A stretch of DNA of 32,421 bases from Candidatus Halobonum tyrrellensis G22. Its GTDB lineage: Archaea; Halobacteriota; Halobacteria; Halobacteriales; Haloferacaceae. Below the pieces are notes generated by a model. It did not search any database. It was not told where the DNA came from and was given only the letters and a program-made list of their open reading frames with translations. Made by a program: the position numbers and the translations under genes. Positions 22,906 to 27,282 of the stretch are shown piece after piece (the stretch's first letter is position 1; the number at the start of each line of letters is the position of its first letter). The stretch is taken from assembly GCF_000495475.1 (NCBI RefSeq), contig NZ_ASGZ01000055.1, positions 1-32,421 on the forward strand. Direction: 5' to 3'.

Positions 22906-23037
22906 CCCGCGCTTCCGTCGCTCCGACGGTCGAGCGGCGACGTTCTCTCGTCCTCGTCGGACGCCTTCGGTCCGACCGCGACCGGTGACCGATCGCGACG
23001 AGTCGGTCGTACGCTCAATTCTGCGGTTGAACGTACG

Positions 23038-23124: not shown

Positions 23125-24960
23125 GTGACGGATCCCCCGCCAGCGGAGGTGGTCGCGGTGGGCGGTAGCCGTCTCGGACGACTCTGCGCGCTCGCGGTCG
23201 CCGCGCTCCTCCTCGCGAGTTCCGTCGCTCCCGTCGCGGCGGCCGCCCGGTCGCCCGCCGCGGACGCGACGACGCTCGCCTCCGACGGCGAGGCGATCTC
23301 GCTCGCCGCCGGTCCCGGACAGGTCGTCCGCGGCGAGTCGCCGCTCCCGCCGGGAACGACTCTCCGCGTGACCATCGAGGGCGGTGGGTCGGGAACGCCG
23401 CAGTTCGTCCGGGCGACCGAGACGGTGGTCGGGACGGACGGCGAGTTCGCCGCCGTGTTCGACCTGTCGACGGTCGACGCCGGCACGAGCGTCGAGGTGA
23501 GCGTCGCGTCCGACGGCGAGTCGCTCGCCACGGCACGGGGGGAGATCACCGAGTGTCGCGACGCCTGCGCGGCCCCGACACCCGAGTCGCCGACGGCGTC
23601 GCTCGACGCCCCGGACGGGACGGTGACCCGCGAGGCCGGTCCGGGTCGCGTCCTCGCGGGCGAGACGAACCTCCCGCCGGGGACGCCGCTCACAGTGCTG
23701 GTCGGATCGCGCGACGGCGGCGAGAACGGTACGACGACGCGGACGACCACGACGGCCGCCGGGACGTTCCGCGCGGTCGTCGACCTCTCGGACGCGCCGA
23801 CGGACGCACCGCTGCGGGTGACGGTCCGGTCCGACGGCACCGACCTGGCGACGAGCGACCTGACGGTCGACCCGTGCTCGGAGTCGTGTGACCGGCCGTC
23901 CGGGACCGAACCGGGGACCGACTCGGCCGACGAGGAACCGGTCGAACGGCGTGCGAACGTCGACGACCTGACCCTCTACGACGCACCGCAGGGCGAGGTC
24001 GTCCGGATTCCGGTGACGTTCGGCCCCTCGAACGGAACGCTCACCGTCGGCGGGGAGAACTTCACGTACGCGCTCCACCTCGCGCTCCACGACGGTGACG
24101 ACGACAACCGCGTCGTCGTCGCGTTCGACACGGCGAAGGTCGGCGCGGGGAGCGAAGCGGTTCGCGCCGTCGACGAGTCGGACTCCGTTCGCGTGCTGTC
24201 CGAGCGCGGGCAGTCGGACCGCTCCGTCCTCGACGAGGGCAGCTACCTCCTGACGCAGCGCCCGGGCGGTCTCGGCCCGGTCGAACACGGCACGCTCGTC
24301 GTGCGCGCCACCGACGCCGACCGGGACACGGCGGACGCCCCCGTCGAGCGGTTCGGGTTCCCGGTCGTCCGCGAGGACGGCGAGTACGACGGGTTCGACC
24401 CGGTTACGACCGCCATCGGGCAGCCCGCCCGCATCCCGTTCCGGACGGACGAAGTCGAGCGCCCCGTCGTCTTCGTCGGCGACCCGAACGAGGGGTTCTT
24501 CCTCCGCGCGGTCGTCGAGGACGGGAACGGTGACGAGCGGGTGACGCTCGTCCTCGACACCGCCGCGGCGGCCAACGGCTCGCACGAGTCGATCCTCACG
24601 ACCGCCGCCTCCGAGGACTCGGTCGACGTTCGGGCCGTCCACGGACGGCTGGAGGCGAAACGGTACTTCCTCCGCGGCTACGTCGCCACGGCGAACCAGA
24701 GTTCGCCCGATCAGTCGCCGGTAGTGGAGAACCTCGTCGTCCGGTCGAGCGGCCGTCTCGTCGTCGGCGAACGGGGGACGACGCCCACGGGGAGCGCGAA
24801 CGGCGGCGACGCCGTCACCACCGAACCGTCGGCACGGGTCGGGCCGTTCGGCCCGCTGTCGGGGTCGAACGGACCCGGACCGCTCCTGCTCGTGGCGGTC
24901 GGCGGCCTCCTCGCTGTCGGCGGCGTCGTCGTCCTGACCGGCGCGGTCGAGTGGGAGTAG
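23125..24960 (+). CDS. surface protein with duplicated BGTF-type and second-domain repeats and a C-terminal anchor
   Basis: The 611-aa protein is exported: a signal peptide ends near residue 41. Two similar beta-rich domains follow, residues ~57-148 and ~164-255, each with an AGPG(Q/R)V...LPPGT(P/T)L pattern and each ending in a CxxxC pair (C144/C148 and C251/C255). Two further related domains are at ~279-400 and ~420-540, sharing IPVTF/IPFRT, LALHDG/VVEDGNG and VVAFDTA/LVLDTA elements. A Ser/Thr/Gly linker leads to a hydrophobic anchor (584-606). Several N-x-S/T sites could be glycosylated (N201, N303, N312, N484, N524). I think it is a BGTF-type cell-surface protein, role unknown. A GTG at 23158 is an alternative start. 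Confidence 0.8.
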   Translation: MTDPPPAEVVAVGGSRLGRLCALAVAALLLASSVAPVAAAARSPAADATTLASDGEAISLAAGPGQVVRGESPLPPGTTLRVTIEGGGSGTPQFVRATETVVGTDGEFAAVFDLSTVDAGTSVEVSVASDGESLATARGEITECRDACAAPTPESPTASLDAPDGTVTREAGPGRVLAGETNLPPGTPLTVLVGSRDGGENGTTTRTTTTAAGTFRAVVDLSDAPTDAPLRVTVRSDGTDLATSDLTVDPCSESCDRPSGTEPGTDSADEEPVERRANVDDLTLYDAPQGEVVRIPVTFGPSNGTLTVGGENFTYALHLALHDGDDDNRVVVAFDTAKVGAGSEAVRAVDESDSVRVLSERGQSDRSVLDEGSYLLTQRPGGLGPVEHGTLVVRATDADRDTADAPVERFGFPVVREDGEYDGFDPVTTAIGQPARIPFRTDEVERPVVFVGDPNEGFFLRAVVEDGNGDERVTLVLDTAAAANGSHESILTTAASEDSVDVRAVHGRLEAKRYFLRGYVATANQSSPDQSPVVENLVVRSSGRLVVGERGTTPTGSANGGDAVTTEPSARVGPFGPLSGSNGPGPLLLVAVGGLLAVGGVVVLTGAVEWE

Positions 24961-25237: not shown

Positions 25238-25849
25238 CTACCGGTCGACGACGAGGAGCGCGGCCGCGAGAACGAGACACGCGAGCAGGAAGACGATGCC
25301 GGGTTCGAGGAGACCGAAGACGACCCACTCGAGGAGCGCGAGCGGGTCGGATCCGCCGCCCGGGTAGCTCAGCGGCGCGACGCCCGGCGCGGTCGGATCC
25401 GCCGGTGCGGCGAGTCGCTCGACGCCGACCTGCACGAGCACCGTCGCGCCGGCGAGGAGCGCACCCCCCGCGAGGAGGGTCGTGAGGTCGGCCCGAACGC
25501 GCCGCTCGCGGTCCGCGTCGCCCACGAGGACGAGCGGGTCGTTCGCGGGCGCGAACAGGCGCATCTCGGCGCCCTTCTCCGAGTAGACGGTTCCGACGGA
25601 CGAGACCAGCCCCGCCTCTTCGAGCCGTCCGAGATGCTGGTGGACGTTCTGCACCGAACTGTCGAGGTCCGCCGCGAGTTCCGAGGTGGTCGCTGGCTCC
25701 TCGAACAACCGTCTGACGATGTCGCGCCGCGTCTCGGTCCCCAGCGCGTCCAGCATCGCGTCCGCGTCGCCGTCGGCGAGACACACGACGCGCGCCTCCC
25801 CCGACTCCACCTCCGGCCGCGACTGGACCCGGTCGATGATCTCCGACAT
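25238..25849 (-). CDS. membrane-tethered ArsR-like winged-helix regulator
   Basis: The 203-aa protein has an N-terminal winged helix (residues ~30-100). MLDALGTETRRDIVRRLFEE and EPATTSELAADLDSSVQNVH place the helix-turn-helix, and GRLEEAGLVSSVGTVYSEKG forms the wing, as in ArsR/HTH_20 regulators. Two hydrophobic segments follow (~123-141 and ~178-201) around a short outside loop rich in P and G, so the DNA-binding domain would be tethered on the cytoplasmic side. I start it at the ATG at 25849. A TATA-like box lies 30-37 nt upstream and a palindrome just beyond it. It is 131 nt downstream of the protease gene on the same strand, which suggests a functional pair; the ligand or signal is unknown. 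Confidence 0.85.
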   Translation of the reverse strand: MSEIIDRVQSRPEVESGEARVVCLADGDADAMLDALGTETRRDIVRRLFEEPATTSELAADLDSSVQNVHQHLGRLEEAGLVSSVGTVYSEKGAEMRLFAPANDPLVLVGDADRERRVRADLTTLLAGGALLAGATVLVQVGVERLAAPADPTAPGVAPLSYPGGGSDPLALLEWVVFGLLEPGIVFLLACLVLAAALLVVDR

Positions 25850-25878
25850 CTCTAGCTCGCTACCGAGACGACCGACTC

Positions 25879-25913
25879 GTAAATCTCTATCCGTGAGTAA
25901 ACTGCGGAGTTTA
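25879..25913 (-). promoter_or_regulatory. regulator promoter with a TAAACT-N4-AGTTTA palindrome
   Basis: On the minus strand a TATA-like AGATTTAC (25879-25886) lies about 33 nt before the ATG. Just upstream, 25898-25913 is a palindrome of two 6-bp arms, TAAACT and AGTTTA, separated by 4 bp. This spacing fits binding of a dimeric winged-helix protein, perhaps the regulator itself. Confidence 0.45.
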
Positions 25914-25980
25914 GCCGACCGCGGTTCGACAGCCGACTCCGGAAGTGGGCCCCGTCTCCCCCGCCGAGACACACCGGCGT

Positions 25981-27282
25981 TCACCCGCCGGCGCTCACGT
26001 TCCCGGCGCGTCGAACGACGGTTATCGGGTCCAGCCGCCCGCTCCCCGTGACCGGGTCGACGCCGTCCGGACCGGTCTCGACGGCCGTCGACTCCACCAC
26101 CGCCTCCACCCGTCGCGGCGTCAGCACGGGGTTCGCGTCCAGTACCAGTGCGACCACGCCCGCGGCGTAGGCGGCGGCGGCCGACGTGCCGACGAACCGG
26201 TCCGCACGCGCCGGGAGGTGGAACCCGCTGGGGGCGACTACGTCCACCCCGGGGCGGTCGTCGACGGGACCGACGCTGCTGAACGGTTCGAGCCGTCCGG
26301 TTCGCCGGTCGACGGCCCCGACGGTGAGCGCGCGCCTGGCCGTCGCCGGCGCGACGACGCTCCCGGACTGCGTGATGTACTGGAGCCGGTGGGTCGGCGA
26401 GACCAGTTCGAGCGGAACGCCGTCGAGGTCCGCGGGGCCGGTTATCTCGACGTAGTAGCTGCCGCCGGGGTCGACCCGCTCGGAGAGCCAGACGTTCGGC
26501 GTCTCGTCGCGGCGGTAGGGGCGCGACTGCGCCACGAGCGTCGCGCGGTCGCCCCGCGACCGGTAGAGGCTCACGGTGACGTTCGCTCGCTGGCTCCGGT
26601 TCACCCGTGACCAGCGGAGCCAGACGGAGACGCGCCCGGTCGACCCGTTCAGGAGGTAGCTGCGGCTCCCGCCGGCGAACCGGTGGACGCCGTCGTCGTC
26701 CGGGTCGAATCGGCCCGCCCAGTGACCGGACCGAGTGTTACCGGCCGCCGTGACGACGGTGACGCCGGCCTCGGCCGCCGCGGTCACGACGGCGGCGACC
26801 CGACTCGACCCGTCGCCGCGCCGCCCGTAGAACGCCACCGGGACGAGCAGCACGTCGACGTCGTTCCGGACGAGCCACTCGACGGCGCGCTCGAACTCCC
26901 CCGGCGTCGAGAACGACGCCAGATACAGGCTCGCCCCGGGGGCGAGGCGGTGGACCGTCTCGGCCGCCGCCGCCCCGTGTCTCCCGCCGGGTCGCTCCCC
27001 GACCGCCGCCTTCCCGAACCGTCGGCGGGCCGAGACGGCACCCTGGACCCTGTCGGACGGGAGCGCGAACCCGGTCGCGTCGACGATGCCGACCCTGACG
27101 CCCTCGCCGGTCAGCCCGGCGTCGTGGAGCGGGTCGACGCCGCCGACGCCCGTCGGCTCCGCAGCCTCCTCGTCGGCGACGACGGCGAGCGGGTCGGGGG
27201 GTGCACTCCGTATCGCGACGCCCGAGATGGCAGCGAGGACGACCGCGACGAGGACGACGACCACCGGTAGACGGCTCCGCAT
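25981..27282 (-). CDS. membrane-anchored subtilisin-like serine protease (S8 family)
   Basis: The 433-aa protein has an N-terminal hydrophobic segment (residues 6-24) that is a signal peptide or anchor, then an S8 domain. The catalytic Asp is D68 in RVGIVDATGF, the His is H102 in GGRHGAAAAE, the oxyanion Asn is N182 in TAAGN, and the Ser is S367 in VGTSAAAAYAAG. The Ser motif is atypical: the usual GTSMAxPHVAG has lost its Met, Pro and His. A beta-rich insert of ~110 residues (193-300, with NVTVSLY and SYYVEITG) sits between N182 and the serine, resembling a PPC or jelly-roll domain. An extracellular protease is likely; the targets are unknown. I use the ATG at 27282; the regulator gene follows. 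Confidence 0.85.
   Translation of the reverse strand: MRSRLPVVVVLVAVVLAAISGVAIRSAPPDPLAVVADEEAAEPTGVGGVDPLHDAGLTGEGVRVGIVDATGFALPSDRVQGAVSARRRFGKAAVGERPGGRHGAAAAETVHRLAPGASLYLASFSTPGEFERAVEWLVRNDVDVLLVPVAFYGRRGDGSSRVAAVVTAAAEAGVTVVTAAGNTRSGHWAGRFDPDDDGVHRFAGGSRSYLLNGSTGRVSVWLRWSRVNRSQRANVTVSLYRSRGDRATLVAQSRPYRRDETPNVWLSERVDPGGSYYVEITGPADLDGVPLELVSPTHRLQYITQSGSVVAPATARRALTVGAVDRRTGRLEPFSSVGPVDDRPGVDVVAPSGFHLPARADRFVGTSAAAAYAAGVVALVLDANPVLTPRRVEAVVESTAVETGPDGVDPVTGSGRLDPITVVRRAGNVSAGG

Follow-up and report, generated by a model that had tools for sequence, protein, structure and literature searches.

Tethered regulators and the haloarchaeal locus

SREBP and site-1 protease form a system of regulated intramembrane proteolysis in which a basic helix-loop-helix (bHLH) factor with two membrane helices is paired with a membrane-anchored subtilase. 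ToxR/CadC-type proteins are membrane-bound one-component regulators with an N-terminal helix-turn-helix (HTH) domain. A locus with comparable parts was analyzed in Candidatus Halobonum tyrrellensis G22 (assembly GCF_000495475.1). The window, which is the whole 32,421-nucleotide stretch of contig NZ_ASGZ01000055.1, holds the genes for a membrane-anchored S8 subtilase, a membrane-tethered winged-helix regulator, and a facing surface protein. The three genes are conserved as a module, the outside loop of the regulator carries motifs that track its pairing with a protease, and the regulator and surface-gene promoters share a pattern. We think it somewhat probable that the three genes are one self-contained surface-state circuit linking envelope state to surface-gene expression. 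The literature searched appeared to leave open how archaea perceive the condition of their S-layer or envelope and relay it to transcription, and the module is a compact candidate for this function with a defined loop, a protease, and two promoters. It is found in Haloarcula sebkhae and Natrialba asiatica, so the steps are testable by ordinary genetics in that group.

The likeness to SREBP and site-1 protease (see also PMC11231238) lies in an N-terminal DNA-binding domain placed inside, two membrane helices, a short outside loop, and an anchored subtilase on the loop's side of the membrane. The differences are that the DNA-binding domain is an archaeal ArsR-type winged helix instead of a bHLH, the protease gene adjoins the regulator gene, an S-layer-like protein is a third partner, and cleavage is a proposal. 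ArnR and ArnR1 of Sulfolobus are also membrane-bound one-component transcription factors with an N-terminal HTH. The consulted portion of PMC13286277 mentions no paired subtilase, whereas here the protease and the surface protein are inherited with the regulator. The window regulator has an HTH and transmembrane (TM) segments in one chain, and DNA binding from the membrane, as by ToxR/CadC/ArnR-like regulators, is predicted for it. The module would work like these tethered-regulator circuits, but it is not assigned to any of them because the bHLH feature of SREBP is missing and cleavage is proposed. Pyrococcus Phr and ArsR regulators (2p4w, 1uly) share the winged-helix fold (Foldseek E about 2e-5 to 4e-5); the window regulator differs in its two C-terminal TM helices and in a Phr_regulator score of 29 against a cut-off of 320. 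The surface partner has the BGTF and DUF7827 domain types of the haloarchaeal S-layer glycoprotein (NF041335), but it falls far below the equivalog cut-off (64.3 versus 1100 bits) and ends in a TM helix with a short tail. No ArtA signal was seen by eye in the C-terminal ends of the surface proteins. The module was not found in the literature searched, a limited search with most subscription papers outside its scope. Each part has a known fold; what is new within that literature is the combination, together with the loops specific to pairing and the S-layer-like partner.

The sequence-only reading had described an anchored subtilisin-like protease followed on the same strand by a DNA-binding protein with two C-terminal membrane segments, and both genes and their segments are confirmed. 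The protease scores 76.2 bits with Pfam Peptidase_S8 (cut-off 21.8) and has a single N-terminal hydrophobic segment (residues 6-24). Asp68, His102, Asn182, and Ser367 align with the catalytic residues of subtilisin, and the full S8 set is intact. The protease model (predicted local distance difference test (pLDDT) 70.7, predicted TM-score (pTM) 0.69, 9 sequences) matches subtilisins with a Foldseek E of about 1e-14 and a TM-score by target of about 0.76. The mycosin (type VII secretion) model TIGR03921 scored 56.8 bits, under its cut-off of 278.75. The regulator belongs to the ArsR family by its Pfam gathering scores (HTH_20, 50.9 bits versus 27; HTH_5, 41 versus 22), and it falls below the NCBIfam cut-off for ArsR/SmtB metalloregulators (43.9 versus 55 bits). 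Its hydrophobic segments are residues 125-143 and 183-201. An AlphaFold2 model of moderate confidence (mean pLDDT 68, 8 sequences) has a winged helix at 39-101, a long helix at 112-147, a coil at 148-168, and a last helix at 183-202. Foldseek places the Pyrococcus heat-shock regulator and further ArsR proteins first among the PDB matches of this model (E about 2e-5). Hydrophobicity and the model together predict a topology with the DNA-binding domain inside, two TM helices, and a short outside loop. The regulator starts at the ATG at 25849; the GTG start in the open reading frame list is unlikely because the orthologues begin at the same ATG (MSxxI...). The intergenic gap between the protease and the regulator is 131 bp and contains the palindrome TAAACTGCGGAGTTTA.

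Table 1. Genes and operator-like sites of the module in the window.
Feature	Position	Strand	Description
Facing surface protein	23125..24960	+	611 aa; signal-peptide-like start, BGTF surface domains, DUF7827 domains, C-terminal TM
Membrane-tethered ArsR/Phr-like winged-helix regulator	25238..25849	-	203 aa; two C-terminal TM helices; outside loop
Membrane-anchored S8 subtilase	25981..27282	-	433 aa; triad D68/H102/S367, oxyanion N182; beta-rich insert (about 187-300)
Operator-like palindrome TAAACTGCGGAGTTTA (TAAACT-N4-AGTTTA)	25898-25913	.	Regulator promoter, -64 from ATG; diverged from family consensus
Second operator-like site TCAATTCTGCGGTTGA	23015-23030	.	Before surface gene, inside 30-bp inverted repeat 23008-23037

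Conservation of the pair and of the facing surface gene

Protease and regulator genes occur in two arrangements, protease-first (as in the window) and regulator-first. The family search of 148 genomes gave 139 with a regulator-like match (E 1e-15 or better) and 53 with a protease match (1e-30). A same-strand regulator adjoins 27 of the 30 best protease matches within the family and 29 of the 30 best class-wide, and the pair is held by 24 of the best 30 regulator matches; the family and class protease sets have genomes in common, and all three sets include the window. We did not see opposite-strand pairs in the 30-locus sets. Fisher p-values on pairing treat related loci as independent and are not usable as probabilities. 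The fetched loci together hold 128 distinct S8 domains, of which 106 belong to a pair (58 protease-first, 48 regulator-first); this set is enriched for pairs, since many of its loci were chosen for regulator similarity. Nineteen of the 22 unpaired S8 domains lie in open frames of at least 690 codons, the exceptions being L172, L304, and L177. Nine loci (L171-L175, L177-L180) were used out of at least 80 from a contig scan, most of the 80 being other subtilases. The pairs span five family groups of the class, with protease-first examples in Haloarcula sebkhae, Natrialba asiatica, Halobellus rufus, and Halonotius pteroides and a regulator-first example in Haloprofundus marisrubri. The same-strand pair is kept in several haloarchaeal families, so the idea that it is not conserved is refuted.

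The window's own genome has a second pair, which is regulator-first (L090; G000:C53:17861-19783) with Gly for the catalytic Asp and a PRVGD loop. Proteases of the protease-first type stand alone in L172 (Halosimplex pelagicum) and L304, where Asp is replaced by Gly and the fetched stretch has no regulator or surface gene. These two look like module decay.

The facing surface gene had been guessed to be part of the circuit, and it belongs to the conserved module. Leaving the window aside, 38 distinct protease-first loci were searched with a profile, and a relative of the surface gene was found in 32 of them and beside none of 124 controls (58 regulators without a partner, 46 regulator-first pairs, 20 lone S8 genes). 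No more than 1.2 kb separates any of these 32 surface genes from its pair: 21 face the regulator in the window order, four precede the protease on the same strand, and seven are on the opposite strand on the protease side. A whole-genome search of the 148 genomes with the window surface protein alone (P0003) agrees with the locus-built profile. Nineteen genomes had a match, 15 of them beside the pair, and the matches in the other four were short frames in one genus. The window surface protein is the sole match in its own genome at E 1e-8. It scores above the cut-offs of domain models NF045517 and DUF7827, and BGTF was found in six of six and DUF7827 in four of six relatives tested. In the relatives, the C-terminal TM helix follows a polar stretch that is often rich in Thr/Ser.

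These properties bear on the idea that the S-layer-like protein is the substrate of the protease, which would trim or shed it; the regulator would set only the amount of surface protein, and the loop would be conserved for an unrelated reason. The polar stretch would suit this arrangement, as would the finding that protease-first pairs alone have the surface gene beside them, in three gene orders. Two results described below oppose it: the loop motif tracks protease pairing, and the regulator-first pairs, none of which has the surface gene (0/46), still have a near-invariant loop. We regard it as improbable. PAS was considered as a cleavage site shared by the surface proteins and was rejected; it occurs in two of 35 C-terminal ends (L071, L079), so it is not conserved. 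The window surface protein contains GPLSG and the regulator loop APLSY, a likeness taken as chance.

Loop motifs and catalytic residues

The outside loop of the regulator differs with the arrangement of the pair. The motif PAS is present in the loops of 48 of 58 protease-first regulators and in none of 48 regulator-first or 61 unpaired ones. Conversely, PR[VIM][GAPT]D is present in 46 of 48 regulator-first loops and in none of the 58 protease-first or 61 unpaired loops; its Arg and Asp are in all 48. PAS was counted in the loop alone, and counts over residues beyond 100 were discarded because the cytoplasmic wing also holds PAS. The loop core is 34.7 ± 3.5 residues long in protease-first regulators and 28.1 ± 2.9 in regulator-first ones, compared with 53.5 ± 31 where the regulator is unpaired. 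Mean loop identities were compared at equal winged-helix identity, leaving out L082-L085. At 50-60% winged-helix identity they were 0.31 (protease-first), 0.40 (regulator-first), and 0.20 (unpaired), and at 60-70% they were 0.39, 0.49, and 0.27. These data show that paired loops are more alike than unpaired ones. A loop motif specific to pairing fits the earlier suggestion that proteolysis or an outside signal might change the state of the regulator.

Unpaired two-TM winged-helix relatives (L031, L136, L166, L168, and others) often have long low-complexity loops of up to 171 residues. L082-L085 are regulators of the protease-first clade whose fetched 17 kb contain neither a protease nor a surface gene; they lack PAS and keep the palindrome in place.

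In the regulator tree (167 sequences), the protease-first regulators form one group (SH-like approximate likelihood ratio test (SH-aLRT) 96, midpoint root) that also holds four protease-less relatives. The regulator-first regulators form another (98), which stands beside unpaired relatives in a group with support 99. In the S8 tree (128 domains), the regulator-first proteases are one group (98), and the protease-first label needs two changes. The trees are quick, and several branches, including that of the window regulator, are long. They are compatible with two origins of pairing or with its loss in the unpaired group. Regulator and protease distances are correlated, with a Mantel r of 0.76 for the 58 protease-first pairs and 0.85 for the 48 regulator-first pairs. 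None of 2000 permutations was as high as observed; species history contributes to the correlation.

A clear N-terminal TM helix was found class-wide in 44 of 56 readable protease-first partners, and the median distance from it to the catalytic core in those 44 is 39 residues. Judged by the size of the usual I9 prodomain, this spacer is too short to contain one. Judged by the column of the catalytic Asp, the triad is intact in 54 of the 58 protease-first proteases, whereas 42 of the 48 regulator-first proteases (L119, L098, and L141 are examples) have Gly instead of Asp, a natural D32G change. L110, L294-L297, and L300 are the regulator-first proteases that keep Asp, and two changes on the tree suffice for the Asp-to-Gly replacement in this arrangement. 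His102, Asn182, and Ser367 are present in all 128 aligned S8 domains, the Asp-less ones included, which suggests that some Ser-His chemistry is kept where Asp is gone.

The loss of Asp raises the alternative of a co-receptor that does not cut. The subtilase fold would hold the regulator loop and might also hold the surface protein; the regulator would be changed by binding or release. This idea draws on the replacement of Asp by Gly in 42 of 48 regulator-first partners despite a near-invariant loop, and on its loss in four protease-first partners. Csp pseudoproteases are germinant receptors, and the Clostridioides difficile CspA structure ranked sixth in the Foldseek search with the window protease model. 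The retention of His102, Asn182, and Ser367 in 128 of 128 domains argues against a co-receptor, as does the full triad of the window protease. We consider a co-receptor possible but unlikely.

Nitrite or azide activates engineered D32G subtilisins, and formate or chloride does so weakly, according to PMC7935941 (structure 6ube). The regulator-first relatives carry the same Asp-to-Gly change naturally, whereas the window protease retains Asp. By analogy, regulator-first proteases might be natural switchable enzymes, which is speculation.

Operator-like palindromes and the proposed circuit

The palindrome that the sequence-only reading placed beside the regulator is exact and in position; that reading did not recognize it as a diverged form of a family operator and overlooked a second site before the surface gene. 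The expected number of such sites in the window at up to two mismatches is 0.03. A genome search for TAAACT-N4-AGTTTA, which that reading had proposed, found a single site at up to one mismatch in the 3.68-Mb genome. Four more sites appear at two mismatches, and the total of five is fewer than the nine of the reversed control. The family operator TYAAA-N6-TTTRA matches at 8 or more of 10 positions in 51 of 58 protease-first regulator promoters compared with 3.0% of mononucleotide shuffles; the variant T[CA]AAA-N6-TTT[GT]A likewise matches 51 of 58 (shuffles 3.4%). At the same score, TYAAA-N6-TTTRA occurs in three of 35 readable regulator-first promoters and one of 57 other unpaired promoters. 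L082-L085 score 8, 8, 8, and 9 of 10. Read as TAAAC-N6-GTTTA, the window palindrome is perfect, and its arms are shifted by one base relative to the family operator. In regulator-first promoters of one genus (L119, L150), another palindrome, TCAGTA...TACTGA, lies about 105 nt before the start of the regulator profile.

The most AT-rich 6-mer begins 12-17 nt past the operator in 20 of 31 non-redundant promoters (shuffles 16%), and positions 15-17 beyond the operator hold A or T in 81-97% of 32 promoters. A 36-bp operator-plus-promoter pattern was built from 30 protease-first regulator promoters, excluding the window. Scores over the 99% shuffle level precede 25 of 33 surface genes, a set that counts the window and keeps close relatives, compared with two of 32 protease genes. 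A random-window control was of little use (99% point 32.1, 95% point 0.4), as it drew real regulator promoters. In the window, the surface-gene site lies in a 30-bp inverted repeat in which 10 of 11 arm positions match; dinucleotide shuffles of the window gave zero matches to a test pattern derived from the site itself. The conserved operator near a TATA-like element supports binding by the regulator in the family, and less strongly in the window, where the site has diverged. From general knowledge of archaeal promoters, a position just upstream of the TFB recognition element (BRE)/TATA region suggests activation.

A wider regulon was considered and rejected. There were zero to eight sites per genome compared with zero to four for controls, and the extended operator had no excess outside the module; its 16 exact matches in 27 genomes divide into 10 within the module and six outside. 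The targets predicted for the regulator are therefore its own gene and the surface gene. Most protease promoters are without the operator (two of 32 with the pattern; two of 28 in a separate operator count), so the protease is not an evident target. This speaks against the notion of ordinary neighbors, namely a secreted protease and a local repressor without direct contact. Regulators beside their own targets are common, and so is autoregulation, which lends this notion some plausibility; it also fails to explain the loop motifs and the third gene, and we hold it to be very improbable.

In the circuit that we favor, the regulator would be a membrane-tethered ArsR-type protein, assumed to be a dimer. 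It would bind palindromes just upstream of its own and the surface-gene promoter elements, most likely as an activator judging by position. The anchored subtilase would lie on the outside and recognize the short outside loop through the xPAS motif, and the surface protein, or its surface lattice, would decide whether the protease can reach this loop. Cutting or binding of the loop would then alter the amount of active regulator, and the cell could thereby adjust the surface protein and the regulator to the presumed input, the state of the envelope. The subtilase fold, the triad, and four M50 (site-2 protease) matches in the genome, two of which are neighbors on a single contig, speak for cutting. 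M50 is unspecific, being found in all 14 control genomes. Haloferax volcanii has four site-2 proteases whose function is listed as unknown in a review table (PMC9263693).

A fuller version would make the module an archaeal counterpart of SREBP and site-1 protease with a D32G-type sister lineage. An S-layer-like sensor would gate the subtilase, the xPAS loop would be cut, a site-2 protease would free the regulator, and the surface gene would be turned on. The regulator-first protease would be a natural D32G-type subtilisin, silent or needing help from a small anion or from the loop Arg and Asp. If so, it would be a receptor or a chemical sensor, for instance of salinity. We find this joint reading doubtful.

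Several observations weigh against the circuit. The window is an atypical member of the family: its loop has PLS (APLSY) where the family has xPAS, and its regulator is on a long branch. Its promoter is among the seven of 58 below 8, with a best family-consensus score of 6/10. The TAAACTGCGGAGTTTA site scores 17.5 on the 36-bp pattern compared with a lowest value of 16.5 and a median of 31.6 for the leave-one-out training promoters, and the surface-gene site TCAATTCTGCGGTTGA has a low score of 8.2 against a threshold of 3.3. Because promoter bases are part of the 36-bp pattern, ordinary promoter sequence could account for some of the surface-gene score, a possibility for which the protease promoters serve as the control. 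The surface-gene profile was grown from the window protein with matches in the fetched loci themselves, related genomes are not independent, and the reversed control of the extended operator matched 48 times compared with 16 for the operator. Four protease-first relatives (L018, L019, L054, L064) have lost Asp68, and two of them keep PAS, so PAS does not track an intact triad. The loss of Asp where loops are still conserved could mean that binding, not cutting, is the conserved act. Finally, the surface gene is absent from six of the 38 protease-first loci. Four of these six are a diverged branch with no clear operator, and two of the four lack the catalytic Asp.

Three loci of this diverged branch (L100, L307, L308) share another gene near the pair, which occupies the place of the surface gene. 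In L100, the sole one tested, it encodes a Tat (twin-arginine translocation)-lipoprotein-like solute-binding protein (SBP_bac_8).

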